Part shown: one piece after another, positions 5,458-49,973 of the stretch
Numbering within the stretch: position 1 is the stretch's first letter
Layout of the letters: the number at the start of each line of letters is the position of its first letter
NCBI RefSeq assembly: GCF_022808815.1
Contig: NZ_JAKZLC010000001.1
Coordinates: 868,001-932,000 of the forward strand
Source of the DNA: Geothrix paludis
GTDB taxonomy: Bacteria > Acidobacteriota > Holophagae > Holophagales > Holophagaceae
DNA: 64,000 bases
Reading direction: 5' to 3'
Position numbers and translations under genes: made by a program
The notes under the pieces: model-generated
What the model saw: the letters and a program-made list of their open reading frames with translations, nothing else
Database searches by the model: none
Told to the model about the DNA's origin: nothing

Positions 5458-7146
5458 TCACTGGGCCAGGGTGATGGCGCCCTCGGCCGCGCTGGCGACC
5501 GTGGCGGCGTATTTGGCGAAGACTCCCGTCCGGTAGCGCGGCGCCGGGGCCTTCCACTCGGCCCGGCGCTTCGCCAGCTCCGCCTCCGGCACCTTCAGGT
5601 CCAGGCGCCGGGTGGGGATGTCGAAGACCACCGTGTCGCCCTCGCGCACCAAGGCGATGGGACCGCCCACGGCCGCTTCCGGAGCCACATGGCCCGCCAT
5701 GAGGCCCCGGGTGGCCCCGGAGAACCGGCCGTCCGTGAGGAGCGCCACGGACTCGCCGAGTCCGGCGCCCACCAGGGCCGCCGTGACGCCCAGCATCTCG
5801 CGCATGCCGGGGCCGCCCTTGGGGCCCTCGTAGCGGATCACCACCACGTCGCCGGGGTCGATGCCGCCCGCCTGCACGGCGGCGAAAGCGTCCTCCTCGT
5901 GCTCGAAGACGCGCGCCGGGCCCGTGTGGTGCAGGCGCTCGTGGCCAGCCACCTTGATGACGCAGCCTTCAGGCGCCAGGCTGCCCCGCAGGATCACGAG
6001 GCCGCCGCTGGGCTTCAGGGGCCGGTTGAAGGGCCGCACGACTTCCTGTCCCGGCGTCTCCGGCGCGCCGGCCAGTTCCTCGCCCAGCGTGCGGCCGGTC
6101 ACGGTCAGGGCCGCGCCGTGGATGAGCCCACCTTCCAGCAGGCGGTTGGCCACCAGCCGGATGCCGCCGGCGGCGTAGAGGTCCGGGGCCATGAACCGCC
6201 CGCCGGGCTTCATGTCCGCCAGCAGCGGGGTGCGCGTGCTGACGCGGTCGAAGTCCTCCAGCGTGAAGGGCACGCCCGCCTCCCGGGCCAAGGCGAGGTA
6301 GTGCAGGACGGCGTTGGTGGATCCGCCTGTCGCCGCCACGGCCGCCACGGCGTTCTCGAAGGCCTCGCGGGTGAGGATGGCGCTGGGGCGCAGATCGCGC
6401 TTCAACAGCTCCATCACCAGGCGTCCGCAGGTCTCCGCGGCCTCGCCCTTGCGGGGATCCTCCGCGGGAATGCCATTGAGGCCCATGGGGCTCAGGCCGA
6501 TGAGCTCCAGGCTGGCGGACATGGTGTTGGCCGTGAACTGGCCACCGCAGGCACCGGCACCGGGACAGGCGGCATCCTCCACCTCCTTCAGCCCCGCATC
6601 ATCCAGCTTGCCGGCGCTGTGGGCGCCCACGGCCTCGAAGACGTCCTGCACCGTGAGGTCCTTGCCGCCGCAGTGTCCCGAGGCCGTGGAGCCGCCATAG
6701 AGGATCAGGCCGGGGATGTCCAGGCGGGCCAGGGCCATGGCCACGCCGGGGTTGGTCTTGTCGCAACCGGAGAGGCAGACCAGGCCGTCGAAGGCGTTGC
6801 CCCGGGCCACCAGCTCGATGGAGTCGGCGATGACCTCGCGGCTCACCAGGGAGGCCTTCATGCCCTCGGTGCCCATGGTGATGCCGTCGCTGATGGAGAC
6901 CGTGCAGAACTCCATGGGCGTGCCGCCGGCGGCGCGGACGCCGGCCTTCACGCGCTCCGCCAGCGCCTGCAGGTGGTAGTTGCAGGGACCGATCTCGGTC
7001 CAGGTGTTCGCGATGCCGATGATGGGCTTCGCCAGGTCCTCGTCCGTGAAGCCGATGGCCTTGAGCATGGCCCGGGCCGGGGCGCGGTCGGGCCCCTGGG
7101 TGATGACCCGGCTGCGGCGGTTGAGCGGTTGTCCTGCGTCTGACAT
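5458..7146 (-). CDS. ilvD: dihydroxy-acid dehydratase
   Basis: Iron-sulfur dihydroxy-acid dehydratase, 562 residues from the chosen ATG. It makes the 2-keto acids of valine and isoleucine. Cluster and active-site motifs are SGCDKTNPG and [17 protein letters not shown], both conserved in the IlvD/Edd family. A GTG start 8 codons upstream is possible, but the ATG at 7146 is preceded by AGAGGAAG at normal spacing and gives the usual N-terminus ([12 protein letters not shown]). It is the first gene behind the tandem leader peptide and attenuator region at 7200-7665. Confidence 0.96.
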
Positions 7147-7199
7147 GGTCTTCCTCTGTGGGAAGGCCACCGACCTCGGGGATGACAGGACCAGATGTG

Positions 7200-7231
7200 A
7201 AAAGGCCCCGCATCGTTCGAGGTGCGGGGCC
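7200..7231 (-). terminator. attenuator terminator 1, ahead of ilvD
   Basis: On the minus strand, a perfect 9-bp stem GGCCCCGCA/TGCGGGGCC (7223-7231 with 7204-7212) with a 10-base loop is followed by TTTT. It starts 25 bases after the stop of the Val/Ile/Leu-rich leader peptide and ends 53 bases before the ilvD start. This is the classical place for a transcription attenuator. Possible competing antiterminator pairings were not worked out. Confidence 0.8.
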
Positions 7232-7255
7232 GGTTTCGGTTGGTTCCGAGAACGT

Positions 7256-7381
7256 CTAGGAGGCCCCCACCTCGCCGCTAATAATCAGCACGGCGGGAAT
7301 GGCCACCAGGTCGGCCACGGGGCGCACCACTGCGGGCGACATCGCCGCAGCTGCCGAGTGATCGAGGTGGGAAAGGCTCAT
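7256..7381 (-). CDS. ilv operon leader peptide 1
   Basis: A 41-codon ORF just ahead of a hairpin terminator and ilvD. It is rich in branched-chain codons in its second half: VV at 18-19, then V22, L25, V26, I28, V31, L32, I33, I34, V38. The run [13 protein letters not shown] ends the peptide, so a ribosome slowed at Val-Leu-Ile-Ile codons would sit close to the terminator stem. This is the logic of ilvL-type attenuation in enteric bacteria (established there, inferred here). No strong ribosome binding site is visible ahead of its ATG, and a later internal ATG (codon 14) would keep all the control codons. Confidence 0.75.
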
Positions 7382-7506
7382 GGCCGATGAGTCTTGGGGA
7401 TCGCGCGGGGAAAGTCAACCGTGAAGTCAGGTCATATCGGGGGGTCATGGGAATCCTCAGGAGAATCGATATCGAAGAGGTCGGGTTCAAGGGGTCGGGT
7501 CGATGT

Positions 7507-7533
7507 AGAAAGGCCCCGCCTGGGTGCGGGGCC
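7507..7533 (-). terminator. attenuator terminator 2, upstream copy
   Basis: On the minus strand, an 8-bp perfect stem GGCCCCGC/GCGGGGCC (7526-7533 with 7512-7519) with a 6-base loop is followed by TTTCT. It lies 27 bases after the stop of the second leader ORF (7561-7665). The stem is the same as that of attenuator 1 except for one terminal pair, while the loops differ. That suggests duplication of the attenuator unit. Confidence 0.75.
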
Positions 7534-7560
7534 GGGATCTGGATGCTGCCGTCCCCGCCC

Positions 7561-7665
7561 CTAACCCGTCAGCCGCAGCACCAGCCCAGGCAGCCCGCCA
7601 ATCACGCCGATGGTCCCTACCACGAAGGTGGGGATCGCGTCGGCGGGGGCGGAGACGGGAAGCAT
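7561..7665 (-). CDS. ilv operon leader peptide 2 (upstream copy)
   Basis: A 34-codon ORF starting 23 bases after the leuB stop. It encodes MLPVSAPADAIPTFVVG and then a Val/Ile/Leu-rich end (TIGVIGGLPGLVLRLTG). Leu codons cluster at 25, 28, 30 and 32, with Val at 15-16, 21 and 29 and Ile at 11, 19 and 22. A hairpin terminator follows directly, as for leader 1. The weighting towards Leu near the 3' end, against Ile/Val in leader 1, would let the two units sense different amino acids (inference). Its ribosome binding site is weak. Confidence 0.65.
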   Translation of the reverse strand: MLPVSAPADAIPTFVVGTIGVIGGLPGLVLRLTG

Positions 7666-7688
7666 GGGTCGGGTTCCGGGTCGAGGGT

Positions 7689-8825
7689 TCAAAGATGGGG
7701 GCGGGCGCCCTCGGGCGAACCGCACCAGGCGTAGGCGGAGTCAGCCAGCCGGGCTCCCTTGGCGCCGGGCGGGCGGATGGCATCGCGGATCTTGGCGCCC
7801 AGGGCCTGGGTGCCGTGGTGGTGCTTGAGGCCCCCCAGGTCCGAGGTGCCGTGACCGCCCTTGAGGACGCGGTCCACCGCGGATTCCAGGGCGCGGGCCT
7901 CCACCTCGAGCCGGAGGCTGTGGCGGAGCAGCATGGCCGCCGAGAGGATGGTGCCGATGGGGTTGGCCGCGTCCTTTCCGGCGATGTCCGGCGCAGAGCC
8001 GTGGATGGGCTCGTAGAGGCCCACGGGACCACCCAGGCTCGCCGACGGCAGCAGGCCCAGCGAGCCTGCGAGCACCGCGGCCTCGTCGCTGAGGATGTCC
8101 CCGAAGAGGTTCTCCGTCAGCACCACGTCGAAGTCGCGGGGCCGGGTGATGAGGGCCATGGCGAAGCTGTCCACGTAGGCGTGGCTGACCTTGACCGTGG
8201 GATACGCAGGCGCCAGCTCATCCACCACCTGCCGCCAGAGGCGGGAGGTCTCCAGCACGTTGGCCTTGTCCACGGAAACCAGCAGCCGCCGCCTGGAGGC
8301 GGCCAGCTCGAAGGCCACCCGCGCGACCTGCTCGACTTCTGTGCGGGTGTAGGGCAGCGTGTTCACAGCCCGCTCGGCGGAGAAGGAGCGTGGCTCGCCG
8401 AAGTAGAGGCCACCACCCAGCTCGCGGACGATCATCAGGTCCGTGCCGTGCACCACCTCCGGGCGGAGGGGCGAGGCATCCTCCAGGGCTGGGTGGACCT
8501 TGACGGGGCGCAGGTTGGCGTAGAGGCCCAGGGCGCGTCGCAGGCGCAGCAGGCCGGACTCGGGGCGCTGCTCGCGCGGGTGGCGGTCCCAGGCCGGACC
8601 ACCCACGGCGCCCAGCAGGACGGCGTCACTGGCCTGGCAACGGGCCAAGGTCTCGGCCGGCAAGGGATCGCCCGTGGCGTCCACGGCCGCGCCGCCGACC
8701 AGGGCTTCCTCCAGATGGAACTGGTGGCCGAAGGCCTTGGCCACGGCGGTGAGGCAGGCGGCCGCCTCGCGGACCACTTCGGGGCCCACGCCGTCGCCGG
8801 GAAGAAGGGTGATGCGGGCTTCCAC
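7689..8825 (-). CDS. leuB: 3-isopropylmalate dehydrogenase
   Basis: NAD-dependent 3-isopropylmalate dehydrogenase, 378 residues, the third step of leucine synthesis. The start is GTG, giving [17 protein letters not shown], the standard LeuB N-terminus. GGGG AG ahead of it lies inside the upstream small ORF. The region [16 protein letters not shown] carries the metal-binding aspartates, and [16 protein letters not shown] is the cofactor loop. Only two bases separate it from the stop of the 43-codon ORF that follows leuA, so leuA, the small ORF and leuB are probably co-translated. The tail after residue ~355 is not conserved. Confidence 0.95.

Positions 8826-8958: not shown

Positions 8959-8959
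<1 letters not shown>
8828..8959 (-). CDS. 43-residue ORF coupled between leuA and leuB
   Basis: A small ORF whose ATG overlaps the leuA stop as TGATG (8957-8961) and whose TGA lies two bases before the leuB GTG. It encodes [17 protein letters not shown] at the start, an Ala/Pro-rich middle and ends DPDQYLWGV. It is acidic and has no membrane segment, signal peptide or recognisable domain. The exact fit between two genes argues that it is translated, either as a real small protein or as a coupling device keeping ribosomes moving from leuA to leuB. I do not recognise the family. Confidence 0.6.
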
Positions 8960-10521
<1,562 letters not shown>

Positions 10522-10582
10522 AAAGGACTCCTGGACCGGCCGGGGCCGGAGGGATCACCAAAAGATCCTCCCATCCAACCCA

Positions 10583-10625
10583 TAAATACATTTAATTTTT
10601 TTTATGATTACATAAGTAATACTTA
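10583..10625. promoter_or_regulatory. AT-rich divergent control region between leuA and the LysR gene
   Basis: This region is sharply AT-rich in an otherwise GC-rich window. It contains two perfect short inverted repeats: TAAAT-AC-ATTTA at 10583-10594 and TAAGT-AAT-ACTTA at 10613-10625. A T-run lies between them. LysR-type regulators usually bind dyads in the gap shared with a divergent target. These are therefore candidate operators for control of leuA and the regulator's own operon (inference). Confidence 0.55.
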
Positions 10626-10653
10626 AAACCCTACACTTCCCGACGGAGGGTCC

Positions 10654-11574
10654 ATGGACCTCGGACAGCTGGAAACGTTCCTGGTGGTCGCGCGCGAGAA
10701 GAGCTTCTCCCGCGCGGCGGAGCGTCTCTTCCGCACCCAGCCCGCCGTGAGCCTCGCCCTGAAGCGCCTCGAGGAGGAGCTGGGCGAGACCCTGGTGGAC
10801 CGCACCACCAAGGGCGGGACGCTCACGGACGCGGGCGCCACCCTGCTCCCCCTGGCGCAGCGCATGTTCGACCTGCGCCAGGAGATCCTCGACACCTTCG
10901 GGGCCCTGAAGGGCCTCCAGCAGGGGCGCCTCAACGTGGGCGCCAACGAGAGCGTGTCCGAGTTCCTGCTTCCCCGGATCCTCCTGGCCTACCAGCAGGC
11001 CTGGCCTGCCATCAAGATCCAGGCCTACCGCCAGACCTCGGAGCGCATCCCCACCGAGGTGCTGGAGCGCCGGCTGGACGTGGGCTTCGTCTCCTACGAC
11101 GCCCTCCATCCCGAGCTGGTGAGCGAGGTGATCCACCGGGACCGCATGGTGCTGGTGGTCCCGCCCGGGCACCGCCTGGCGAAGCGGAAGAACGTCAGCA
11201 TCACGGACCTGGGGGAGGAGCGCTTCGTGGCCCATAACGCGCCCACGCCCACCCGGACCGCCATCATCGAACTGTTCGCCCGCTGCAACACGCCCCTGCG
11301 TCTCACCATGGAGCTGGCCTCCATCGCCACCATCCTGGAATTCGTGAGCCTTGGGGCCGGACTGGCCATCCTGCCCCGCATGACCACCACAGCGGCCGTC
11401 CGCGAGGGCCGGGTGGTGGAGATCCCCGTCCGGGAGCTTCAGGTGGAGAAGCTCATCCGCATCGTCACCCGCCGCGAGGCGGCCCTGTCCCCCGCCACGC
11501 GGGCCTTCCTCGACCTGATCCGCGCCATTGACTTCGACCACCCCGACCCCGCTCCAGCTAGGAAGAGCCCATGA
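10654..11574 (+). CDS. LysR-type transcriptional regulator of the leu genes
   Basis: A 306-residue LysR-family regulator. The N-terminal winged helix-turn-helix covers residues 1-60 ([20 protein letters not shown], with [16 protein letters not shown] as recognition helix). The LysR substrate-binding fold spans ~88-295. Its stop overlaps the leuC start (ATGA), so it is translated with leuC-leuD, and it is divergent from leuA. A regulator bound into the pathway operon this way probably senses a leucine-pathway metabolite such as 2-isopropylmalate, as LeuO/IlvY-like proteins do in other bacteria. The ligand is inferred, not seen. Confidence 0.88.
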
Positions 11575-29224: not shown

Positions 29225-30691
<1,467 letters not shown>

Positions 30692-30703
30692 CTTCCTGAA
30701 CTA

Positions 30704-30813
30704 CTGGTCACGGAAGACACGGAAGAAGGCCGGAAAACACGGAATAAAACATGGGGCTCCGATCGGAGCCCCTTTCCGTGTCTTCCGTGGAATTCCGCGC
30801 CTTCCGTGACCAG
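30704..30813. repeat. long intergenic inverted repeat of the cacggaaga type with central palindrome
   Basis: Outer arms CTGGTCACGGAAG (30704-30716) and CTTCCGTGACCAG (30801-30813) pair perfectly. Between them the words cacggaag and cttccgtg recur, and a 20-bp palindrome GGGGCTCCGATCGGAGCCCC (30753-30772) sits in the middle, followed by TTT. It fills the gap between two convergent genes (HerA-like ATPase and Dus), where it can end transcription from both sides. Confidence 0.85.
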
Positions 30814-30825
30814 CGCTTTTCAGGC

Positions 30826-31806
30826 TCAGGCCGCCTGGTGCCTCAGGGCGTCGATGGCGGCCAGGAGGGCCTGGGCGTCGCTGGCGGCGTGGAGGTTCTG
30901 GCGGAAGCCGTGGCCGCCGGGCACACCCTTGGTGAACCAGGCGCCGATCTTCTTGATCTTGTGCAGGGCCTCGCGGGGCTCCAGCAGGTCCAGCAGGATC
31001 TGGAACAGCCGCAGGGTGGCGTCGATGCGCATGTCCGTGGTCACGATGAAATCCGACTCCAGGATCTGCCGGAAGAGGAACGGATTGTAGAGCGCGCCAC
31101 GCCCGATCATCACGGCGGTGCAGCCCGTCTCCTCGACCATGCGGAAGGCATCCTCCCGGGCATTCACGTCGCCGTTGCCGATGATGGGGTACGAGGTGCC
31201 CGCCTCCACGGCCCGGGCGATGATGCTCCAGTCCGCGTGCCCCTCGTACTGCTGGGCCCGGGTGCGGGGGTGGATGGCCAGGGCCTGCACACCCGCGGCC
31301 TCGAACATGCGCAGGAAGTCCAGGAACTCCCCCCGCTCCTTCTGGGACGCGTCCCAGCCTGCCCGCATCTTCACCGTCACCGGCACCTTCACGGCCTTCA
31401 CCATGGAAGTGACGCAGCGCTCCGCCAGTCGGATGTCCTTGAGCAGCGCCGAGCCCGCTCCGCCCTTGGTGACGTTGCTGGCCGGGCAACCCATGTTCAG
31501 ATCCACCAGGTCCGCCCCGGCGGCTTCGCACAGCGCCGCGCCCTCCGCCAGGGCCTCGGGCCGCCCACCGGAGATCTGCATGGAGAGCGGCCGTTCGCCC
31601 GTGGCCGCCATCATCTTCTCCGCCTTCACCGCATGCCGGATCAGCGCCTCGCTGCTGATCATCTCCGAGACCACCAGCCCCACCCCGCCGATCTCCCGGA
31701 TGAACTTCCGGAAGGGCTGGTCGGTGATCTCATGCAGCGGCGCCATGACGAGGCGGTTGGGCACCTCGATGGGACCGATGTGGAATGGTGAGTGGGGGAA
31801 GGTCAC
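30826..31806 (-). CDS. dus: tRNA-dihydrouridine synthase
   Basis: An FMN-dependent Dus family enzyme (DusB-like), 326 residues, reducing uridine in tRNA D-loops. It starts at GTG (MTFPHSPFHIGPIEVPNRLVMAPL). The catalytic cysteine is C107 in NMGCPASNVTKGGAGSALL. VKMRAGW holds the FMN-contacting lysine, and IHPRTRAQQYEGHADW and IIGNGDVN are family signatures. The upstream open frame is a shadow of the quinone reductase gene. No ribosome binding site is obvious, so the start could shift by a few codons. Confidence 0.93.
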   Translation of the reverse strand: MTFPHSPFHIGPIEVPNRLVMAPLHEITDQPFRKFIREIGGVGLVVSEMISSEALIRHAVKAEKMMAATGERPLSMQISGGRPEALAEGAALCEAAGADLVDLNMGCPASNVTKGGAGSALLKDIRLAERCVTSMVKAVKVPVTVKMRAGWDASQKERGEFLDFLRMFEAAGVQALAIHPRTRAQQYEGHADWSIIARAVEAGTSYPIIGNGDVNAREDAFRMVEETGCTAVMIGRGALYNPFLFRQILESDFIVTTDMRIDATLRLFQILLDLLEPREALHKIKKIGAWFTKGVPGGHGFRQNLHAASDAQALLAAIDALRHQAA

Positions 31807-31889
31807 GGGCGGGCTTTCTGGCGACCTTCCAGTGTAGCGGGGGCTCAGAATCTGGCCTGCGGCCAAATTCCGAGGCGGAGGGCCTTCCC

Positions 31890-32942
31890 TCAAGTCCTCG
31901 TATCGGCGCAGACCAGGACGATCTTCCCGATCACGCCACCCCTTTCCAGCAGTTCCTGGGCTTCCCTTGCGGCGGAAAGCGGCAGCCGCTGTGCGACGAG
32001 CGGCCTGATCTTCTGCTGCTGAAGCAGGTCCAGCAGGGTGATGAGGTCCTGACGGAACAGGGCCGGTCGCAGCCGTTTGAGCGTCTGGATGCTGTAGGGG
32101 ACCACCCGCCTCCGGCCGGGGAGGACCCAGCCCCCGAGGATGTAGAGCAGGTAGATGGGGATTCCATGGAGCCGATTCCGACGGCCGGCGCGACCGGCAC
32201 CCAGTCCCTCTCCGCGCAGTGTCGTGGTGTTGCCGTAGCCCACCACTCTTCCCCCGGATCGCAATGCCCCCCGGGATTGCCAGAGGTGGGCGCCCCCAAA
32301 GGGATCGAAGACGGCGTCGACACCGCCGCCCGCGAGGCGCCGGGTTTCGGCCACGAAGTCCTGATGTTGGTAGTCGATCGGGGTGGCGCCTAGCTCGGAC
32401 ACGGCCGGGGCGGAACGCAGAGAGCAGGTGCCGTACAACTCCAGCCCGGCCAAGTGGCCAAGCTGCAGAAGGGCCGTTCCCACGCCGCCGGCGGCGCCAT
32501 GGATCAACGCGCGCTGGCCCGGCTTGACCTTGGCGGAACGATGAAGCATCTGGTAGGCCGTGATGTAGTTGAGGATGAGGCTCACGGCTTCCGCCGGGTC
32601 CAACCCGGAAGGCACCGGGACGAGCTCGCGCTGCGGCAGGCAGATGAACTCTGTGTAGGCGCCATGGATCGGCATCGCGGCAACCACCTGGCCCGGCGCG
32701 AACCTCGAAACGCCCGGGCCGGGGAGGTCCACCACTCCGACCAGGTCCCAACCCGGCGTGTAAGGCACCGGTGGCGTTTCGGGGTGGATGCCCTCGTGCG
32801 CCATGATGTCGGGCATGGCAACCCCTGCGGCCAGCACCTTCACCCGCACTTCGCCGGCCGCTGGTTCGGGGCGCGCCTCTTCGATCACCTGGAGCGCCTC
32901 AGGCCCGCCGTAGTGGGAGACAACGACTCGCTTCTGTCTCAT
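31890..32942 (-). CDS. zinc-independent MDR family quinone oxidoreductase
   Basis: A 350-residue medium-chain dehydrogenase/reductase. The GroES-like domain is N-terminal (1-130). The NAD(P)H-binding motif HGAAGGVGTALLQLG lies near residue 150. The zinc-binding cysteines of alcohol dehydrogenases are absent, so it belongs to the quinone oxidoreductase group. The start is secure because AGGAGGAGG stands ahead of MRQKRVVVSHYGGPEALQ. An inserted basic segment (~265-300) is longer than usual. The gap of 241 bases upstream towards rho holds the rho hairpins and no further gene. Confidence 0.88.
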   Translation of the reverse strand: MRQKRVVVSHYGGPEALQVIEEARPEPAAGEVRVKVLAAGVAMPDIMAHEGIHPETPPVPYTPGWDLVGVVDLPGPGVSRFAPGQVVAAMPIHGAYTEFICLPQRELVPVPSGLDPAEAVSLILNYITAYQMLHRSAKVKPGQRALIHGAAGGVGTALLQLGHLAGLELYGTCSLRSAPAVSELGATPIDYQHQDFVAETRRLAGGGVDAVFDPFGGAHLWQSRGALRSGGRVVGYGNTTTLRGEGLGAGRAGRRNRLHGIPIYLLYILGGWVLPGRRRVVPYSIQTLKRLRPALFRQDLITLLDLLQQQKIRPLVAQRLPLSAAREAQELLERGGVIGKIVLVCADTRT

Positions 32943-33140
32943 GGGCCCTCCTCCTCTTTCGTGAATCCCACGCGACGTGGGCATGACGAAATGCCGGACT
33001 GCCTGATGCGACCGCGAATGGAACGGTTGGGACCTGTGATGGGAAAAAGGTACGGGGCGGAGGGAAGCGCTCCCAGCCGCTATCGCCGGGGTCATCTCCC
33101 TGGCTACTTCTACATGATATCCGGCCCATCGACGCGCCAA

Positions 33141-33166
33141 GTTGGCGCTGCCTTTGCAGCGCCAAC
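33141..33166 (-). terminator. hairpin downstream of rho
   Basis: A perfect 11-bp stem GTTGGCGCTGC/GCAGCGCCAAC with a 4-base loop is flanked by a second matching pair CGACGC (33130-33135) and GCGTCG (33171-33176). There is no T-run, so intrinsic termination would be weak. The structure lies 18 bases past the rho stop and could stabilise the mRNA end or act with Rho itself. Confidence 0.5.
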
Positions 33167-33176
33167 CTGGGCGTCG

Positions 33177-33194
33177 CGCGGCGCTAGCGCCGCG
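33177..33194. repeat. 18-bp perfect palindrome covering the rho stop codon
   Basis: CGCGGCGCTAGCGCCGCG is a perfect palindrome. The rho TAG stop (33184-33186) lies in its centre. In RNA it would fold with almost no loop, so a DNA-level role or simple GC-bias chance are both possible. Confidence 0.6.
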
Positions 33195-34476
33195 GGGCCG
33201 GCTCCTGCAGGTTCGCCAGGAACTCGTCGTTCGTCTTGGCCTTGCCCAGGCGGTCGACGAGCAGCTCCATGCTCTCGCTGGGGCCGCTGGCGCTGAGGAT
33301 CTTGCGGAGCACCCAGATCTTGGCGAGCTTGGCGGCGTCGATGAGCAGGTCCTCCTTGCGGGTGCCGGACTTCTGGATGTCCATGGCCGGGAAGATGCGC
33401 TTGTCGCTGAGCTTGCGGTCCAGCACGATCTCGCTGTTGCCGGTGCCCTTGAACTCCTCGAAGATCACGTCGTCCATGCGGCTGCCGGTCTCGATCAGCG
33501 CCGTGGCGATGATGGTGAGGCTACCGCCGGCCTCGATGTTGCGCGCCGCACCGAAGAAGCGCTTGGGGCGCTGGAGGGCGTTGCTGTCCACGCCGCCGGA
33601 GAGCACCTTGCCGCTGGGGGGCACCACGGTGTTGTAGGCCCGGCCCAGGCGCGTGATGGAGTCCAGAAGGATCACCACGTCCTTCTTGTGCTCCACGAGG
33701 CGCTTGGCCTTCTCGATGACCATCTCGGCCACCTGGACGTGGCGGGTGGCGGGCTCGTCGAAGGTGCTGGAGACCACCTCGCCCTTCACGCTGCGCTCCA
33801 TGTCGGTCACTTCCTCGGGCCGCTCGTCGATGAGCAGCACGATGAGGAACACTTCCGGGTGGTTGGCGGTGATGGAGTTGGCGATGTTTTGCAGCAGCAC
33901 GGTCTTGCCCGTGCGGGGTGGGGCCACGATGAGGGCGCGCTGGCCCTTGCCCAGCGGCGTCATCAGGTCCATGACGCGGGTGCTGACCTCCTGGGCGTCC
34001 CGCTCCATGCGCAGGTGGTGTTTGGGATACAGAGGCACGAGATCATCGAAGTGGGCGCGGTCCTTGGCCACCATGGGCGGATCGAAGTTCACGGCGTCCA
34101 CCCGCAGCATGGCGAAGAACTTCTCGCCTTCCTTCGGCGCGCGGATCATGCCGGAGAGCGTGTCGCCGGTGCGCAGGTTGAACTTCCGGATCTGGCTGGG
34201 CGAGATGTAGATGTCCTCGGGGCCCGCGAGGTAGTTCTGGTCGGGGCTGCGCAGGAAGCCGAACCCCTCGGGCAGCACCTCCAGCACGCCCTCGGCAAAG
34301 AACTGGCCCTCGCGCTCGGCCTGGGCCTGGAGCACCCGGAACACCAGCTCCTGCTTCCGCATGGCGAGCGGGTTCTCGATCTGCAGGTCCTTCGCCAGTT
34401 CGGCGAGCTTGCCGATGGAGAGTTCCTTGAGCTCTTGCAAGCTCAGGATGGCCGGGGACTGAGAAGGGGTGGCCAT
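33184..34476 (-). CDS. rho: transcription termination factor Rho
   Basis: Rho helicase, 430 residues, near the usual length. The Rho_N domain (~10-50) and the RNA-binding cold-shock-like domain (~56-125, [23 protein letters not shown]) are both intact. Walker A is APPRTGKT (185-192). [16 protein letters not shown] and [16 protein letters not shown] carry the catalytic residues, and the secondary RNA site [20 protein letters not shown] follows. It lacks the long N-terminal insert seen in some high-GC phyla. It is monocistronic. Confidence 0.97.
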
Positions 34477-34543
34477 AGGTCACCTCAGGGGCAGGGCGAG
34501 TCGGAAGTGGCTCGGGGAAGGATGTATGGTAGGCCAGTTTCCT

Positions 34544-35380
34544 CTATCGGCCAAACCCGGCATCGACTTTATCCATGAAGTTCCGAATCCTGGCCACGAA
34601 TCCTTTGGGGTCCTCGACGGGGTAGGCATGCCCGATGCCCGGTACGACTTCGAAGCGGCTGCCGGGAATGCGCTGGGCCGTCTCCAGGCACTTCCAGGGC
34701 GGGGTGAGGAGATCCTCGGCACCGGAGAGCATCAGGACTGGATTTTGGATGAGACTCAGACGCTCCCGGATGTCCCAGCCCAGGATCCCCCGGATCTGAT
34801 GCAGGTTGCCGTGCATGGGCTTCCCGGCGCCCCCCGTCACCACCTGGTGGTAGGCCCGCAGGACACCGTGCCGGGCCTCCAGGAACGCGTCGCCCCAGAG
34901 GAAGGGCGCCACGGCATCGAACTGCATGAGGGGCCCGCCCACCTCCAGGCATCGGGCCCAGTGCTCGGCCTTAAGGGCCATGGCGAAGTCGATGCGCGGC
35001 ATGGCGCTGGTGAGCACGGCTCCAGCGAAGGCGCCGGGATGGGCAGAGAGCAGCTCCAGGCTCATGGCGCTGCCGTTGGAGAGGCCCACCAGCCAGGGCC
35101 GTTCCACGCCCAGGACGCCGAACAACGCCTTGGCCTCGGCGGCCATCAGGGCGGTGGGATAGGGGCCCGCCTCCGGCGCGTCCGACTTCCCCTGCCCCCG
35201 GCTGTCGAAGGTGAGGACGCGGTAGCGGCCCATCAGGCCTGGCAGCACCCCGGCCCACATGGTGGTGTCCGACAGCAGGCCGTTCAGCAGCACCACCCAG
35301 GGTCCATGCGGATTCCCCTGGACGCGGTAGTGGAGCTTCAGGCCCGAAGGGAGGGTGGCGAACGTGGGCTGGGGTCGCAT
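34544..35380 (-). CDS. alpha/beta hydrolase
   Basis: A 278-residue alpha/beta hydrolase fold enzyme. The oxyanion segment is LLNGLLSDTTMW, the nucleophile elbow GLSNGSAM (serine), the acid SGAEDLLTP and the histidine GIGHAYPVEDP. It resembles 3-oxoadipate enol-lactonase and related esterases, but the substrate is not clear. Its ATG overlaps the sixA stop by TGATG, so it is cotranslated with the thioesterase-sixA pair upstream. Confidence 0.88.
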   Translation of the reverse strand: MRPQPTFATLPSGLKLHYRVQGNPHGPWVVLLNGLLSDTTMWAGVLPGLMGRYRVLTFDSRGQGKSDAPEAGPYPTALMAAEAKALFGVLGVERPWLVGLSNGSAMSLELLSAHPGAFAGAVLTSAMPRIDFAMALKAEHWARCLEVGGPLMQFDAVAPFLWGDAFLEARHGVLRAYHQVVTGGAGKPMHGNLHQIRGILGWDIRERLSLIQNPVLMLSGAEDLLTPPWKCLETAQRIPGSRFEVVPGIGHAYPVEDPKGFVARIRNFMDKVDAGFGR

Positions 35381-35853
35381 CAGCCCCTCAGCTCCGATGG
35401 CTGGTACTGCGCCTCGAAGCGCCAGGCGCCATCCTCCCAGCGGATGACCGTGCAACTGGCCTTCTTCACCTCGAGGCTGCGGCCCGTGAGATGGAAGATC
35501 AGCTCGCCGAGGAAGGGCTGGTGGCTGACGAGGGCCAGCACGCCGCCTGGCATCTCGGCCGCCAGCCCGCGCAGCCAGAGGTCCGCCTGGGGCACGCGGC
35601 TCTCCGGCAGGACCAGCAGGGAGGTCTCCATGGGAAAGACCCCGGAGGCTTCCTGGAGGCAGGCCATGGTCTCCATGGCGCGCCGGTAGGGGCTGCTGAA
35701 TCCCCGGGTGGGACGGTGGCCGCGGCTCACAAGCCCCTTCATGGCCGCGCGGGTCCTGGTCCAGCCTTCCCGGGTCAGGGCCCGGTCCGCATCGCGCTGG
35801 CCAGGCCGGGCATCCTCCGCGATGCCATGACGGATGAGCAGGATCGAAGTCAT
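35380..35853 (-). CDS. sixA: phosphohistidine phosphatase SixA
   Basis: A 157-residue histidine phosphatase. It opens MTSILLIRHGIAEDA with the catalytic RHG (8-10). FSSPYRRAMETM and LALVSHQPFLGELI supply the second arginine and histidine. SixA dephosphorylates phosphohistidine on HPt domains or the PTS-Ntr protein NPr in E. coli. It lies 9 bases after the thioesterase gene and overlaps the hydrolase gene. Confidence 0.9.
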   Translation of the reverse strand: MTSILLIRHGIAEDARPGQRDADRALTREGWTRTRAAMKGLVSRGHRPTRGFSSPYRRAMETMACLQEASGVFPMETSLLVLPESRVPQADLWLRGLAAEMPGGVLALVSHQPFLGELIFHLTGRSLEVKKASCTVIRWEDGAWRFEAQYQPSELRG

Positions 35854-35862
35854 GCCGTGATC

Positions 35863-36918
35863 TTACCGCTCCCGCGAGGCCTTCCACGCCAGCCGCGCCT
35901 CCCGGCGCCGGTGGGCGGCCAGGTAGCGGGCGTCCTCGGCGTAGGTGGTGGGGTAGATGGGGGGCACGGGCTGGGGACGCAGCTCGTCGTCTACACTCGC
36001 AAAGGTGAAGACACAGCTGTTGGAGAGATTCGTCTGGGTCCGGTCGCGGCTCACGCGGATGATGTCCGTCTCCACGCACACACTGGTGTTTCCGGCATAG
36101 ACCGCCCGGCTGAGGAACTGCAGCTTGTCACCCATGCGCACGGGCTGAACGAAGTTGATGCGGTTCACGGCCACGATGACGGGGCGGTGCGGTGCCACCT
36201 GTTCCGCGCAGATGGCCGACTGCTCGAAAGCCTGGCGGATGAGGTGCCCACCGAAGATCTTGGTGGGGACGTTCTCATGCTCTGGATAGGTGCGCTCCCA
36301 GCCGCTGGTGACGCACTCCGCCGCCATCAGCCCCTGGAAGCCGGAAGCGTCCTGGGCCGCGTGCAGGGAAGCCAGCAGGGCGTATTCGTCGCGGCTGGGT
36401 GGCTCCTGGGCCTGGTGCAGCTGCTGGCGGTAGCTTTCCCGCCGCGCGATGGCGCGTTCCCAGCGCCGCAGCGCCAGGGCATCGCCGGGTTCGAAGCCGG
36501 GAAGGACCAGACTCTCCGCTCCCGCCCCCGCGGTGCTGCGGGCCACCATGGTGAAGTAGCAGGAGGCGATGTGGGCGGCGGGCAGGCCCGCTTCCGCCGG
36601 GTGCTCCACGCGGATGCCCACTTCCAGGCTGGTGCGGCCCACGAAATTGACCCGGGCCCGGAACACCATGTCGCGGTGCACGTCCGCCGCGCTGCGCACG
36701 AAGATGTTGTCGATGGCCGCCGTCACCACCCGGGCCTGGGGATGGGTGCGGCGCACGTAATCCAGCGCGCACTCCTCCGCAACCTTGTCGAGCACTTCGA
36801 GGATCAGGCCGAAGCGCACGTTGGCCGGAAGGTCCTGGTCGAGCACCATGTAGCGCCGCCGCAGGGATGGATCGGAACCCAGGGGGACTGTGAGGATGCG
36901 GTCTTCGGGATCAGCCAT
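35863..36918 (-). CDS. double-hotdog acyl-CoA thioesterase
   Basis: A 351-residue protein with two hotdog thioesterase domains (~15-140 and ~185-330), like eukaryotic ACOT9 and bacterial acyl-CoA hydrolases. RVVTAAIDNIFVRSAADVHRDMVFRARVNFVGRTSLEVGIRV marks domain 1; its counterpart in domain 2 is VIVAVNRINFVQPVRMGDKL...GNTSVCVETDI. The family's NKIFGG(H) segment is present as TKIFGGHLIRQAFEQS. The chosen ATG (MADPEDRILTVPLG) has no strong ribosome binding site. First gene of thioesterase-sixA-hydrolase. Confidence 0.87.
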   Translation of the reverse strand: MADPEDRILTVPLGSDPSLRRRYMVLDQDLPANVRFGLILEVLDKVAEECALDYVRRTHPQARVVTAAIDNIFVRSAADVHRDMVFRARVNFVGRTSLEVGIRVEHPAEAGLPAAHIASCYFTMVARSTAGAGAESLVLPGFEPGDALALRRWERAIARRESYRQQLHQAQEPPSRDEYALLASLHAAQDASGFQGLMAAECVTSGWERTYPEHENVPTKIFGGHLIRQAFEQSAICAEQVAPHRPVIVAVNRINFVQPVRMGDKLQFLSRAVYAGNTSVCVETDIIRVSRDRTQTNLSNSCVFTFASVDDELRPQPVPPIYPTTYAEDARYLAAHRRREARLAWKASRER

Positions 36919-37059
36919 GGACCAGTATGGCGGAAGGTTGTCGATACAGAATTGGAATATCCCTTGGAAATTATTGGGTTTCGTGAGAAGCTTCCTGTTT
37001 GGGCCTCTCCCGGCTGGCGCTGTCTGCCATCTTCTGCGGGAACAGCCCCGGGAGACATT

Positions 37060-38670
37060 GTGAACGACCTGACCTTCGCAGCCCTCGGCTGCAGCGAAGC
37101 TTTGCTGGCCGCCCTGGCCAAGCGCGGCTTCGAGACCCCCATGCCCGTGCAGGCCCAGACCTTCAAGCCGGGCCTCGAAGGGCGCGACCTGCTGGTGCAG
37201 AGCCGCACCGGCTCCGGCAAGACCCTGGCCTTCGGCCTGCCCCTGCTGCACCGGCTCTCGGACGAGCGCCACACCCAGGCCCTCATCCTCGCGCCCACGC
37301 GCGAGCTGGCCCAGCAGGTGGGTGCCGAGCTGCACAGCCTCGTGCCCAAGCTGCCCATCGCCTCCCTCGTCGGCGGGGTGAGCTACACGCCCCAGCTGCG
37401 GGCCCTCAGCATGGGCGCTCCCGTGGTGGTGGGCACGCCGGGCCGCGTGATGGATCACCTGGAGCGCGGCACGTTGGACTTGGGCCGCGTCAGCATGATC
37501 GTCCTCGACGAGTGCGACGAGATGCTCAACATGGGCTTCCTGGAGGATGTGGAAACCATCCTCGCCAAGGTGCCCGCGGGCCCCCAGACCTACCTGTTCT
37601 CGGCCACCCTGCCCGCCCCCATCGCCAAGCTCGCCAAGCGTTTCCTCAAGGATCCCGTCCAGATCCAGTTGGCGGAGGCCGGCGAGCAGGCCAGCCACGC
37701 CGACATCGCGCACACGCCCGTGCTCGTGCCCGACCATCACCAGGTCCGCGCCCTCGTGAACCTGCTGCTGAAGGACGAGCCCAGCGCCGCGCTCATCTTC
37801 ACCAAGACCAAGGCCCAGACCGAGGAAGTCGCCGAAGAGCTGACCGTCTCGGGCCTGCCCGCGGCCTTCCTGCACGGCGACCTGGCCCAGGCGACCCGCA
37901 CCCGCATCCTCGGCCAGTTCAAGGACGGCAAGCTGCGCTACCTCGTGGCCACGGACGTGGCGGCGCGGGGCCTCGACATCGGCGGCCTTCCGCTGGTCGT
38001 GCACGTGGGCATCCCCACCCAGCTGGAAAGCTACATCCACCGTAGCGGCCGCACGGGCCGCGCCGGTGCGAAGGGCACCAGCCTCGCCCTCGTGAACTGG
38101 AAGGAGAGCCGCATCCTGCTGGCCTGGGGCCGCCGTGGCGGGCTCAAGCTGGACTGGCGCGCCGTGCCCACGCCCGCGGAGATCCGGGAGGCCCAGGCCG
38201 CCAAGCTCCTGGACGGCATCCAGGGCGCCGCCAGCGCCGCACTGCTCGCCCAGGCCACCCAGCTGCTGAAGGACGCCGACCCCCTGCGCCTCGTCGCCGG
38301 CCTGCTGGGGCTGGTCCAGGCCGAGAAGTCGGCGGGATTCGAGCTGCCGAACGAGCCTGAGAAGAAGACCAAGCCCCGCTTCGACACCCCCCGCGAGCGC
38401 AAGGAGGGCGGTCCCCGCCCCCAGCGTTCCTACGCGGAGCGCAGCGCCGCCCGGGGCGAGGCTCCGCGGCCGGATTCCGCCTTCTCCAAGACCCGGCCTG
38501 ATGGCAGCTTCAAGCCCCGCCGCGAGTTCGACGAGAAGCCGCGCCCCTACCAGAAGCCCAAGCCGGAGGCCGACACCCGCCCGCGCCGCACCTGGGAGGA
38601 CCGCCCCGCTCCCAAGGACACACCCCGCCCCTGGAAGACCGCCCCTGCGAAGGCGTGGAAGAAGAAGTAG
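37060..38670 (+). CDS. DEAD-box RNA helicase with basic C-terminal tail
   Basis: A 536-residue DEAD-box helicase. The Q motif precedes Walker A SRTGSGKT (48-55). PTRELAQQ, TPGRV, the DECD form of the DEAD box, FSATLP, VATDVAARGLDIG and HRSGRTGRAG are all present. After residue ~370 comes a linker and a very basic Arg/Lys/Pro tail (~425-536), expected to bind RNA. The start is GTG behind GGGAG; the frame is open 1.5 kb upstream as a shadow of the thioesterase. It likely acts in ribosome assembly or RNA decay. Confidence 0.94.
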   Translation: MNDLTFAALGCSEALLAALAKRGFETPMPVQAQTFKPGLEGRDLLVQSRTGSGKTLAFGLPLLHRLSDERHTQALILAPTRELAQQVGAELHSLVPKLPIASLVGGVSYTPQLRALSMGAPVVVGTPGRVMDHLERGTLDLGRVSMIVLDECDEMLNMGFLEDVETILAKVPAGPQTYLFSATLPAPIAKLAKRFLKDPVQIQLAEAGEQASHADIAHTPVLVPDHHQVRALVNLLLKDEPSAALIFTKTKAQTEEVAEELTVSGLPAAFLHGDLAQATRTRILGQFKDGKLRYLVATDVAARGLDIGGLPLVVHVGIPTQLESYIHRSGRTGRAGAKGTSLALVNWKESRILLAWGRRGGLKLDWRAVPTPAEIREAQAAKLLDGIQGAASAALLAQATQLLKDADPLRLVAGLLGLVQAEKSAGFELPNEPEKKTKPRFDTPRERKEGGPRPQRSYAERSAARGEAPRPDSAFSKTRPDGSFKPRREFDEKPRPYQKPKPEADTRPRRTWEDRPAPKDTPRPWKTAPAKAWKKK

Positions 38671-38686
38671 CCTTGTATCCTCCTAT

Positions 38687-38728
38687 CTCCAAAACAAAGG
38701 GCGCCGATTGGCGCCCTTTGTTTTGGAG
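38687..38728. terminator. bidirectional terminator between DEAD-box gene and PBP1A
   Basis: A perfect 19-bp stem (38687-38705 with 38710-38728) around a GATT loop. The stem has a GC core (GGGCGCC) and an A-rich left and T-rich right side, giving U-tracts in both directions. It lies between two convergent stops. Confidence 0.92.
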
Positions 38729-38743
38729 CGGGTGAACCACGGA

Positions 38744-41224
38744 TCACCCGTTTGGATCCGTCGCGTTCAGATCCACGGGCTTGGGTTCCTCGACCTTGGC
38801 GGGCTGGCCCCAGACGCGGTTCTCCATGGGCTGGACCGCCGCCTTGTCCCGGGCCTCCTTCACCTTCTGGATGGCCTCGGCGTCGCTGCCGGACTTGGGC
38901 ACGGTGCCGGGCTTGAAGGCCAGGTGGAGCACCTTGTCGGCGGTGGCGGAGGTGGCCAGCAGGCCCGTGTAGCGGTCGATGTCCGCCCATTCCATGCCCT
39001 CGGGAGCCTGGAACGTCTCCTGCGGCGTGGTCGGCAGGGCCGCCTTCATGAAATCGACCCAGATGGGCAGGGCCACCTTGGCGCCATCCGCCCCCCGGAA
39101 GATCGTCTTCTTCTCGTCCAGGCCCACCCACACGCCGCACACCACGCGCGTGGAGAAGCCCAGGAACCAGGCGTCCGTGTGATCGTCCGTGGTGCCGGTC
39201 TTGCCGGCCACGGGCCAGTTCAGTTCGTTACTCTTGGCGCCGGTGCCGCTGGTGGCCACGCCCTGGAGGCACTGGATGAGCTGGTAGGTGCTCTGCGCGT
39301 CCAGCACCTGCTCCGTGGCCGCGCCGCCGTGGGTCTCCAGGACCCGGCCGTTCCGGTCCACCACCTTCTTGATGAAGAAGGGCGGCGGCGCCTGGAGGCC
39401 GCCGTTGGCGATGGTGGCGTAGCCGCGCACCATCTCCTTCAGCGTCAGGTCGGCGGAGCCGAGGGCCATGCTGGGATAGGGGGGGATGCTGCTGGTGATG
39501 CCGCACTTGCGGGCGAAATCGATGACGTTGAGGACGCCCGTCTCCTCCAGAGTGCGGACGGCGGGCACGTTCCGGGAATCGCGGAGGGCCTCCCAGATGG
39601 GGATGGGGCCCCAGAAATCCCGCTCGTAGTTCTTGGGTTCATACGGCTTCACGCCGCCGCGCAGGGGCTTGTATTCCGAGGTTCCGTCCGGGAGGGTGAC
39701 GGTCATGTAGTCCACCGTGTTGACGAAGCGCGTGGGCACATCCAGGACCATGCTGGCGGGCGTCTTGCCGGCGGTGAAGGCCGCGCCGTAGACGAAGGCC
39801 TTCATGGTGGATCCGACCTGGCGCTGCGCCTGCATGGCGCGGTTGAATTTGGAGCGGTTGAAGTCGTAGCCGCCCACCATGGCGCGGATCTCGCCCGTCT
39901 TCGGATCCAGCGCCATCAGGGCGCCTTCCACCTGGGGCTCCTGGTCCAGCTCCAGGGTCTTCGGCGTGCCGTCATCCGCGGCCTTCACCAGGAAGAGCGG
40001 CGCGGCTCCGCGGGGCAGCAGCTTCTGGGGGTCCTTGCCGATCCAGGCGAAGGCGCTGTCGGGAACTTCGAGAGTTGTCTTGCCGATGCGCACCTGGGCC
40101 TTGCCGCCCTTCCAGGCGAGGATCACGCCCCGAACGTTGTCGCCGGCCTCGAAGTAGCGCTTCCAGCCGTTGAGCTGCGTCGTGTCGGGATCCGTCACGA
40201 ATTGCACGGCGTCCTTCCGGAACCCGCGACGGCGATCCACCGCCTTCAGACCGTTCCGCACGGCCTCGTTGGCGGCCTCCTGCCAGTAGCTGTCCACGGT
40301 GGTGGTGACTTCCAGGCCGCCGTTCAGGACCTGCTCGCGGCCGTACTTCTCGTAGAGGTACTTGCGGACCTCCTCCACCACGTAGGGGGCCACGGCCTCC
40401 TCGTGGGCGTTTTCACGGGCCAGACGGATGGGCTTGTCCATCAGCAGACTGGCTTCCTGGGCCTTGAGGTAGTCCTCCTTCACCATCCGGAGCAGCACGT
40501 GGTTGCGCCGGGCCTTAGCGGCGGCGCGGGCCTTGGGGTCGGGGTTGTACGGGTTGTACCAGTTGGGATTCTGGACCAGCCCTGCGAGCAGGGCGCATTC
40601 CTCAACGTTGAGCTGGGGGGCGCTCTTGCCGAAGTAGAACTCCGCGGCGGCCTCAATGCCGTAGCGCCCGCCGCCGAAGTACACCTCGTTGGCGTACATC
40701 TCCATGATCTGCTTCTTGGAGTAGGCCTTCTCCAGCTTGCGGGCGAGGATGATCTCCTTCAGCTTGCGGTCCAGGCGCTTCTGGCGCTTGGCGGTGACCG
40801 TGCGGATGAGCTGCATGGTGAGGGTGGAGGCGCCCTCCCGCCGCCGGCCGAAGCTGGTGATGAAGTTCACGCCCGAGCGCATGATGCCCCGGGCGGAGAC
40901 GCCGCTGTGGCTCCAGAAATCCGAATCCTCCGTCGCGACCAGCGCGTTCACGAAGGCCTTGGGGATGTCGCCGTAGGGGATCACCACCCGGTGCTCCTCG
41001 GCGAAGATGCCGATGACGTTGCCGTCGTGATCCAGCACCTTGGTGATGGTCTTGGGCACGCGCAGGGCGAACAGCGTGAGGAAGCTGTCCGCGTCCCGCG
41101 AAAGCACGGACCAGGACACTGCCAGGGTGGCCGCGCCGGCCACCGACAGGGCCAGGAAGGCCCACAGGGCGCGCCCGATCCAGCGCCGGGCGGGGGATGA
41201 GTGGGATGCCTGGTTCGAAGCCAT
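38744..41224 (-). CDS. penicillin-binding protein 1A
   Basis: A bifunctional class A penicillin-binding protein, 826 residues. One N-terminal membrane helix (19-40) leads to a GT51 transglycosylase (~65-235, catalytic E99 in ATEDSDFWSHSG). An inserted OB-like region (~320-415) follows, then the transpeptidase with STMK (472-475, nucleophile S472), SRN (550-552) and KTGT (675-678). The C-terminal ~60 residues are charged and non-conserved. The ATG at 41224 is divergent from nadK, and the 28-base gap must hold overlapping promoters or one gene uses a distal one. Confidence 0.95.
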   Translation of the reverse strand: MASNQASHSSPARRWIGRALWAFLALSVAGAATLAVSWSVLSRDADSFLTLFALRVPKTITKVLDHDGNVIGIFAEEHRVVIPYGDIPKAFVNALVATEDSDFWSHSGVSARGIMRSGVNFITSFGRRREGASTLTMQLIRTVTAKRQKRLDRKLKEIILARKLEKAYSKKQIMEMYANEVYFGGGRYGIEAAAEFYFGKSAPQLNVEECALLAGLVQNPNWYNPYNPDPKARAAAKARRNHVLLRMVKEDYLKAQEASLLMDKPIRLARENAHEEAVAPYVVEEVRKYLYEKYGREQVLNGGLEVTTTVDSYWQEAANEAVRNGLKAVDRRRGFRKDAVQFVTDPDTTQLNGWKRYFEAGDNVRGVILAWKGGKAQVRIGKTTLEVPDSAFAWIGKDPQKLLPRGAAPLFLVKAADDGTPKTLELDQEPQVEGALMALDPKTGEIRAMVGGYDFNRSKFNRAMQAQRQVGSTMKAFVYGAAFTAGKTPASMVLDVPTRFVNTVDYMTVTLPDGTSEYKPLRGGVKPYEPKNYERDFWGPIPIWEALRDSRNVPAVRTLEETGVLNVIDFARKCGITSSIPPYPSMALGSADLTLKEMVRGYATIANGGLQAPPPFFIKKVVDRNGRVLETHGGAATEQVLDAQSTYQLIQCLQGVATSGTGAKSNELNWPVAGKTGTTDDHTDAWFLGFSTRVVCGVWVGLDEKKTIFRGADGAKVALPIWVDFMKAALPTTPQETFQAPEGMEWADIDRYTGLLATSATADKVLHLAFKPGTVPKSGSDAEAIQKVKEARDKAAVQPMENRVWGQPAKVEEPKPVDLNATDPNG

Positions 41225-41252
41225 GGGACCAGGATAGCGGTAGAGTGTTGCC

Positions 41253-42131
41253 ATGCCCCAGCGATTGATCCTCGTGGCCAAGGCCAAGTCTCCGCACCTG
41301 GTGTCCACCTTGCGCGAGGCGGTCCCGCCGTTCCTCGATCGGGGCTGGGCCGTCAAGGGCGAGCCGGCCCTGGCCGAGGCCTGGGCCCAGGCCGACCTGC
41401 CCCCCGCGAAGCTGGCCCTGGATCCGGATCTTGGCACGGCGGATCCCGTCGCGGACCTCTGCCTGGTGCTCGGCGGCGATGGCACCCTGCTCCATGCGGC
41501 CCGCCGCGTGGGCATGCGGGGCACCCCCATCCTGGGCATCAACCTCGGCTCCCTGGGCTTCCTCACAGCCCATCCCGTATCCGAAGCCGCCGCCACTGTG
41601 CAGGCCTTCCTGGCAGGGACCCTGGCGACCGACCGACGGCCGACGCTAGAGGTGGAGCTCTGGCGGGAGGATCGTCAGATGGTTCGGCAGACGGTGCTGA
41701 ACGATGCGGTGGTGGCCAAGGGCGCCCTGGCCCGCATCATGGACATGCACCTGCGGGTCGGCAATGAGGATGCCGGTCCCATCAAGGCGGACGGACTCAT
41801 CGTGGCGACGCCCACGGGATCCACCGCCTATGCGCTGTCCGCGGGAGGGCCCATCCTGCATCCCAGCCTGGAGGCCTTCGTCGTGGCCCCCATCTGTCCG
41901 CATACCCTGACCCTCCGCCCGTCCGTGGTGCCCGCCTCGCGCCCCATCAGCATCACCTTGGAAGAAGCCGAGGACGCCCACCTGACCCTGGACGGCCAGG
42001 TGGGGCACCGGCTGTTCCCCGGCGATGAAGTGCGGCTCCGCCAGGCCCAGACCCGCATCACCCTCCTCCAGCGCCCCGGCCTGGACTTCTTCGCCCTGCT
42101 CCAGCAGAAGCTGCACTGGGGGGATCGGTGA
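41253..42131 (+). CDS. nadK: NAD kinase
   Basis: NAD(+) kinase, 292 residues, making NADP. The catalytic motif LGGDGTLLHAARR has D76. LNDAVVAKGALARI (the NE/ND motif) and DGLIVATPTGSTAYALSAGGPI are conserved. FVVAPICPHTLTLRPSVVP completes the family signature. It is divergent from PBP1A and followed by an inverted repeat. Confidence 0.96.
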   Translation: MPQRLILVAKAKSPHLVSTLREAVPPFLDRGWAVKGEPALAEAWAQADLPPAKLALDPDLGTADPVADLCLVLGGDGTLLHAARRVGMRGTPILGINLGSLGFLTAHPVSEAAATVQAFLAGTLATDRRPTLEVELWREDRQMVRQTVLNDAVVAKGALARIMDMHLRVGNEDAGPIKADGLIVATPTGSTAYALSAGGPILHPSLEAFVVAPICPHTLTLRPSVVPASRPISITLEEAEDAHLTLDGQVGHRLFPGDEVRLRQAQTRITLLQRPGLDFFALLQQKLHWGDR

Positions 42132-42136
42132 GGTTC

Positions 42137-42283
42137 AGTCCTGAGCCCTCAGTCCTCGGTCCTCAGTCTGGAATTTGAGCAGCCCTGCGGGCCGGCCATT
42201 GGTTTCCATTTGGGCCGTTCAAGCGGGTCGGCGCCGACCTGGAGCCATCGGCCCGCCTTCTCCAGGACTGAGGGCTGAGGACC
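42137..42283. repeat. intergenic inverted repeat of the cctcagt type, after nadK
   Basis: The left arm AGTCCTGAGCCCTCAGTCCT (42137-42156) pairs with 42264-42283 at 18 of 20 positions, with further cctcagt words to 42168. The same words form the repeat at 24231-24325. A short dyad GACCAC-CA-GTGGTC (42294-42307) follows. The rest of the 42132-42454 gap shows no ORF with support; it must hold the promoter of the oxidoreductase operon. Confidence 0.75.
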
Positions 42284-42454
42284 GGAGACCGGGGACCACC
42301 AGTGGTCTGTCCCCCGCAGACCGCCCGCGCCGGGGCCCATTCCTGACCTTTCGGTCGGTGGCGGTCTGCGCCGGAGCCCGCTTGTGACCACGCGCACACG
42401 GGGTGGGCATGACACTTCCCCGTGGTAGGACCTGCGTCCCTGCATGGAGTTCCC

Positions 42455-45282: not shown

Positions 45283-45305
45283 GCCCGCAATTCCAGGAGG
45301 CAGCC

Positions 45306-45569: not shown

Positions 45570-45619
45570 AGGCCTTTCAAGGCGGGTTAAGCTGGAGTTC
45601 CATCCACCTCGAGGACACC

Positions 45620-48546: not shown

Positions 48547-48581
48547 CCTCTCCGTTCGAAGCCATTCGTCAGGGTTGATCA

Positions 48582-48618: not shown

Positions 48619-48628
48619 CCGATAAGGT

Positions 48629-49921: not shown

Positions 49922-49973
49922 GGGCTTCCTTCCGCCCCCATTCTACCGGGCTCGGAGGTGTTAGCCTTCCTCG

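Follow-up and report, generated by a model that had tools for sequence, protein, structure and literature searches.

A putative leucine-sensing attenuator between leuB and the ilv genes in Geothrix paludis and its relatives

Why should a short open reading frame with a hairpin of its own lie directly behind leuB, when another leader and terminator stand just ahead of ilvD? The question is raised by a window of Geothrix paludis DNA (the whole stretch of 64,000 nucleotides analysed here), in which the minus-strand order is leuA, leuB, unit 2 (7665-7512), a promoter-like element (7418-7390), unit 1 (7381-7204), ilvD, ilvB, ilvH and ilvC. A sequence-only reading had seen two tandem leader/terminator units ahead of a single operon, the upstream one (unit 2) weighted to leucine and the downstream one (unit 1) to isoleucine and valine. 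The genes of the region are the following:

10654..11574, plus strand: LysR-family regulator, divergent to leuA and, by its position, the probable regulator of leuA
8959..10521, minus strand: leuA, first gene in the leuAB(-ilv) direction; passes the NCBIfam cut-off
7689..8825, minus strand: leuB, 3-isopropylmalate dehydrogenase, upstream of unit 2; TIGR00169, 482.9 bits against a cut-off of 353.2
5458..7143, minus strand: ilvD, dihydroxy-acid dehydratase, first gene past both units; passes the NCBIfam cut-off
5447-3711, minus strand: ilvB; passes the NCBIfam cut-off
about 3751-3158, minus strand: ilvH; passes the NCBIfam cut-off
3115-2099, minus strand: ilvC; passes the NCBIfam cut-off

No leader peptide unit was seen before leuA, where the upstream region is the stretch divergent to the LysR-family gene, conserved in 21/21 genus genomes. 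In the intergenic part (10522-10653), all 21 of the genus genomes looked at share a strongly conserved AT-rich block, in the window ATTACTTATGTAATCATAAAAAAAATTAAATGTATTTAT, which is probably a LysR-type site.

Unit 2 consists of the following elements:

7674..7677, minus strand: GGAA, possible weak Shine-Dalgarno sequence of the leader; read by eye, unscored against chance
7561..7665, minus strand: leader ORF of 34 codons plus UAG, MLPVSAPADAIPTFVVGTIGVIGGLPGLVLRLTG, ending in GLPGLVLRLTG and the stop; homologues in 20 further genomes
7570..7578, minus strand: CTG CGG CTG, proposed control codons, with invariant Leu codons at -5 and -3 flanking an Arg/Trp codon at -4
7557..7561, minus strand: GGGGC, 5' strand of the antiterminator, whose first base is also the last of the stop codon; found in the fold of every genome
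7528..7532, minus strand: GCCCC, 3' strand of the antiterminator, belonging also to the terminator 5' arm; fold prediction
7512..7533, minus strand: terminator hairpin, GGCCCCGC-ACCCAG-GCGGGGCC; predicted -19.8 kcal/mol

The 34-codon ORF and the hairpin directly 3' of leuB are thus present as first described (7665-7561 and 7533-7512), and they are kept in 21 genus genomes. The ORF starts 23 nt after the leuB stop codon (7691-7689), and the stretches upstream of the unit 2 leaders hold a motif of GGA/AGG type some 9-14 nt ahead of the ATG (again read by eye and unscored against chance). Comparison of the leuB-ilv junctions shows a separate ORF of 34-36 codons in the 21 genomes with two exceptions, one of 44 codons that overlaps the end of leuB and one that has a 36-codon form but also an alternative start giving a longer ORF. 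In every case it terminates in UAG, 29-33 nt ahead of the hairpin. The leucine weighting holds up well: codons -5 and -3 before the stop encode Leu in 21/21 genomes (42/42 codons, with a single change, CTG to TTG, that is synonymous), counts that refer to related genomes and not to independent events. The intervening codon -4 is Arg in 17 genomes and Trp in four, the amino acid varies at -2 (Thr, Ala, Met or Arg) and -1 (Gly or Asp), and codon -6 is Val in 17 of the 21, by way of four different Val codons. It may be that the conservation of CTGYGGCTG has RNA reasons instead of reflecting the coding of Leu. A second reading frame across the stretch is open in 18/21 genomes, so openness of the ORF alone proves little. 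Its N-terminal part drifts freely, with a pN/pS of about 1.5 for codons 2 to -16 and hence no purifying selection, whereas the last 15 codons change slowly; judged by sequence, this is the pattern that a leader, but not a working protein, would be expected to show.

In seven genomes of one further clade the separate ORF is absent. There the leuB stop codon serves as the UAG to which the antiterminator is joined (in G003 only the tail of LeuB was read), and LeuB ends in GLAVILP, LPVILPT, DVILPS or similar. Leu occupies position -3 in five of these seven, which represent few independent lineages, and the RNA switch is present in all six that were folded.

How might the RNA of unit 2 work? Downstream of the ORF stands GGCCCCGCACCCAGGCGGGGCC, followed by a short T-tract. 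The hairpin, G+C-rich in the window, has a predicted energy between -17.5 and -21.4 kcal/mol in each of the 21 genomes. The U-tract behind it is weak; in the window it reads TTTCT (7511-7507, TTTCTACATC), and in most unit 2 genomes it has three to four T in eight positions. Every unit 2 also has a GGGGC(C) run joined to the stop codon and able to pair with the terminator's G(G)CCCC arm, around an inner hairpin that is specific to the clade; the run has a mismatch in G005, and in G015 and G007 the match is shorter. If nothing covers the RNA from the stop codon on, the predicted energy of this antiterminator is -13.8 to -22.6 kcal/mol across the 21 unit 2 genomes and the six LeuB-tail genomes folded. 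Masking the first 12 nt, counted from the stop, leaves about -2 to -6 kcal/mol in the former and -2 to -9 in the latter. In the folding model, then, antiterminator and terminator would exclude each other, and a ribosome at the stop codon would mask the antiterminator while a ribosome at the control codons would not, with part of the antiterminator 5' arm predicted to stay paired in the window's clade even when the ribosome is at the stop.

Shuffling of the spacer weakens the antiterminator on average in 27/27 genomes folded, with z-scores from -1.0 to -4.9 that are weakest in the window's clade (-1.0 to -1.9). Among 12 unit-2-only sequences, 95.8% of antiterminator cells are paired, against 30-65% when the partners are slid, and 100% of the terminator cells. 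One compensatory change in the antiterminator, from G-C to A-U, occurs in G013 and G063. Covariation in the antiterminator is nonetheless small and does not go beyond the shuffle control (65 of 500 shuffles reach it), because the arm shared with the terminator is invariant and cannot vary. RNAalifold, run on all unit 2 sequences jointly, found mainly the terminator, since the antiterminator's inner part is not the same from clade to clade. The terminator wins at equilibrium in every occupancy state tried, and the switch must therefore be kinetic; attenuators usually depend on a kinetic choice. A protector (1:2) hairpin over the control codons has a pairing probability of 0.00-0.01 in all 21 genomes, and the one that could be drawn from GGTGCTGC and GCAGCATC in the window was rejected, its predicted probability being almost zero.

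From this anatomy, its conservation and the predicted energetics of the fold, we infer translation of the leader, termination at the hairpin, a response to leucine and the passage of leuAB transcripts across unit 2. Unit 2 is, on this model, probably a ribosome-mediated transcription attenuator within a leuA-leuB-ilv transcription unit, at the leuB-ilv junction, and we put the probability of this reading at about 0.6. A ribosome on the short ORF behind leuB would meet Leu codons five and three codons before UAG. With ample charged tRNA-Leu it would reach the UAG and cover the first bases of the antiterminator (UAGGGGC(C)), leaving the GGCCCC arm to pair with its own 3' arm, so that transcription would stop after leuB. 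When leucine is short the ribosome would lag on the Leu codons, GGGGC(C) would pair with G(G)CCCC, the hairpin would be delayed and the polymerase would continue towards ilv. Given that the predicted fold has no protector hairpin, read-through would be favoured if the leader went untranslated, in contrast to the classical trp/ilv design.

Both units occur in seven genomes, which form one clade (with G008, supported 100/100 on the LeuB tree). Unit 2 alone is found in 14 genomes, G008 included, where it stands by itself between leuB and ilvD or ilvB, with neither unit 1 nor its promoter; unit 1 alone is found in three genomes, and three others have no unit. The check proposed at the outset, whether relatives keep both units, thus comes out positive for these seven, and unit 2 is not absent from the relatives. 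No other promoter is visible for ilv in the unit-2-only genomes, and leuAB transcripts must therefore, by inference, cross unit 2 there; if so, unit 2 would lower the flow from leuAB to ilv when leucine is plentiful. One genus offers each unit on its own, the two together, and a leader seemingly merged with the end of leuB, so that gain and loss can be compared side by side.

Apart from the units, ilvD appears to have been lost from the leuB-ilv operon several times in the genus, with six changes on the LeuB tree (G007, G008, G014, G005, G034, G068 and others).

What, then, does unit 1 add? Its elements are these:

7413..7418, minus strand: TTGACT, -35 element; TTGAC[AT] in 10/10 genomes with unit 1
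7390..7395, minus strand: AAGACT, -10 element; [AG]A[ACG]ACT in 10/10 genomes with unit 1
7256..7381, minus strand: leader ORF of 41 codons; the same class of leader occurs in other genera
7262..7273, minus strand: GAGGTGGGGGCC, 5' strand of the antiterminator, 12 nt within the codons for GEVGA; fold prediction
7204..7231, minus strand: terminator hairpin, whose 5' side (7231-7219) is also the 3' strand of the antiterminator; fold prediction

The hexamers are 17 nt apart, and an element of the type TTGAC[AT]-N17-NANACT lies between the units in 10/10 unit 1 genomes (positions by eye; in G061 before the second ATG). They end 8 nt before the start codon, so the mRNA of the unit 1 leader is expected to be nearly leaderless. 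Very little change is seen in the stretch GTGCTGATTATTAGCGGCGAGGTGGGG across the 10 genomes, all of one genus. Its control codons, V-L-I-I, agree with the proposed weighting to isoleucine and valine, and its protector is partial (predicted pairing probability 0.03-0.66). By sequence, unit 1 looks like an ordinary ilv attenuator of the wider class, and ilvD leaders like it occur in other genera and in another family of the class, for example G079 and G046 (ending in VVVVVIIVISSAGPPG and the stop).

Unit 1 would act mainly on transcripts that start at its own promoter, and unit 2 on read-through from leuAB. The picture of two leaders ahead of one operon therefore stands in part: tandem leader/hairpin units are kept in relatives, but the promoter-like element between them (10/10) and the presence of unit 2 alone in 14 genomes speak against their serving jointly as leaders of a single operon. 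A promoter between the units with no transcript crossing unit 2 had been named as what would count against the idea, and the promoter part of this seems to be there, as the predicted element in all ten unit 1 genomes. For the pair as a whole, both proposals made at the outset, that it integrates two amino acid signals or that it insulates ilv from leu read-through, are possible.

It is possible that in the window's clade unit 2 is mainly an insulator, namely the normal terminator of leuAB, left over from the unit-2-only arrangement, which stops leu transcription from entering ilv now that ilv has a promoter and an attenuator to itself, the Leu codons hardly mattering any longer. The conserved promoter-like element downstream of unit 2 fits such a role, as does the antiterminator signal, which is weakest in this very clade. 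The unit 1 start, 8 nt past the -10, has no evident Shine-Dalgarno sequence, so that unit 1 may go untranslated, and terminate, on leuB read-through RNA; on this ground an insulating role for the unit pair in the clade is quite possible. However, all eight genomes of the clade retain the UAG spacing and both Leu codons (-5 and -3), and in G008, which belongs to the clade, unit 1 and ilvD are gone and unit 2 alone stands ahead of ilvB. We regard unit 2 as mainly an insulator there as unlikely.

Alternatively, the hairpin may be only a constitutive terminator of leuAB or a stabiliser of its mRNA 3' end, and the ORF a chance frame in G+C-rich DNA. Two of three frames are mostly open in the stretch, conservation is poor in the N-terminal part of the ORF, pN/pS is not below 1, and the T-tract is weak. 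A chance frame would leave unaccounted for the invariant Leu codons and the fixed UAG, the antiterminator joined to a stop codon across several lineages (27 genomes), and the lack of any other visible promoter for ilv in the unit-2-only genomes, which makes this account distinctly improbable. Could the ORF instead encode a small functional peptide, for example a membrane peptide, with the hairpin incidental? The peptide would be hydrophobic in its C-terminal half, and its final residues are conserved, but the free drift of the remaining sequence, and the seven genomes that lack a separate ORF while the RNA switch persists in the six folded, leave this explanation very little probability.

The leucine-attenuator reading of unit 2 can be widened. 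A leucine-sensing attenuator between leuAB and ilv would set the read-through; in one lineage the last codons of LeuB (VILP or LPT before the stop) would replace the leader, making translation of the enzyme the sensor, and in another it would work in series with a promoter-bearing Ile/Val attenuator. We offer this wider scheme only tentatively and consider that it may well not hold in full. It suggests a way in which a common leu-ilv transcript could be split by leucine supply.

The enterobacterial ilvGMEDA and leuABCD leaders are ribosome-mediated attenuators, in which a short ORF with branched-chain codons lies near mutually exclusive antiterminator and terminator structures. The units described here share with them the leader ORF, the branched-chain codons and the exclusive structures, and in unit 1 a partial protector. 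In contrast, unit 2 lies within the operon after leuB, has no protector, and has an antiterminator that begins in the leader stop codon; on the predicted fold, these three traits (missing protector, antiterminator starting in the stop codon, place between two genes) would set it apart from the classical design. In the E. coli rph(orfE)-pyrE attenuator the end of the upstream gene is the translated element and UTP is sensed through polymerase speed. The LeuB-tail genomes parallel it in the use of an upstream gene end, the rph-pyrE signal being UTP and not an amino acid. To our knowledge, few leader-peptide attenuators in series have been described. Salmonella mgtCBR has tandem attenuators in one 5' leader with ATP and Pro as signals (PMC3641672). 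As there, two short ORFs stand in series, each with alternative structures and able to read different signals; unlike there, a promoter-like element lies between the units and the first unit sits between two genes. By analogy, parts of both units would work like known ribosome-mediated attenuators, with mgtCBR as the precedent for tandem leader peptides. The Corynebacterium ilvBNC attenuator/uORF, as described, lies in the 5' leader of one operon and likewise has a leader ORF that controls ilv transcription in response to a branched-chain signal, but it is not described as placed between leu and ilv genes (PMC11857589, PMC10272879). Among the open-access titles and abstracts listed, there was no description of an attenuator at a leu-ilv junction or of any attenuator in the genus.

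Rfam gave no match in the window at the gathering score, and none at E up to 1 in 7100-7760. A terminator scan of 30000-49999 returned fewer sites than shuffled sequence and is hence uninformative on what terminators look like in this genome. No further copies of either unit were found in the genome, the backwards control pattern for unit 2 also having had one match; a 47-nt DNA match of unit 1 elsewhere falls in an apparent amino-acid permease coding stretch and was put down to chance.

The ilvD leaders of G042, G046, G038 and G040 (L022, L023, L025 and L026) have long runs of Val, Ile and Leu codons and strong terminators (for example, ending in VLLVVLVVVIIVISSLGPPG or MFKTTLLALILVIVIISLVLLRLGPPV and the stop). 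Judging from their codons, leaders with such runs appear to be a class-wide type of ilv attenuator, the window copy of which has no Rfam match. Part of the genus has a conserved C-terminal extension of LeuB of ~28 residues (7689-7780 in the window), which is absent from the other members. In a sister genus, L178 (G075) has one unit at the leuB-ilvD junction, with no room for a promoter and a unit-1-like end (LVVPVLLAILIDRQAGAP and the stop), and is possibly an intermediate between the unit 1 and unit 2 types.
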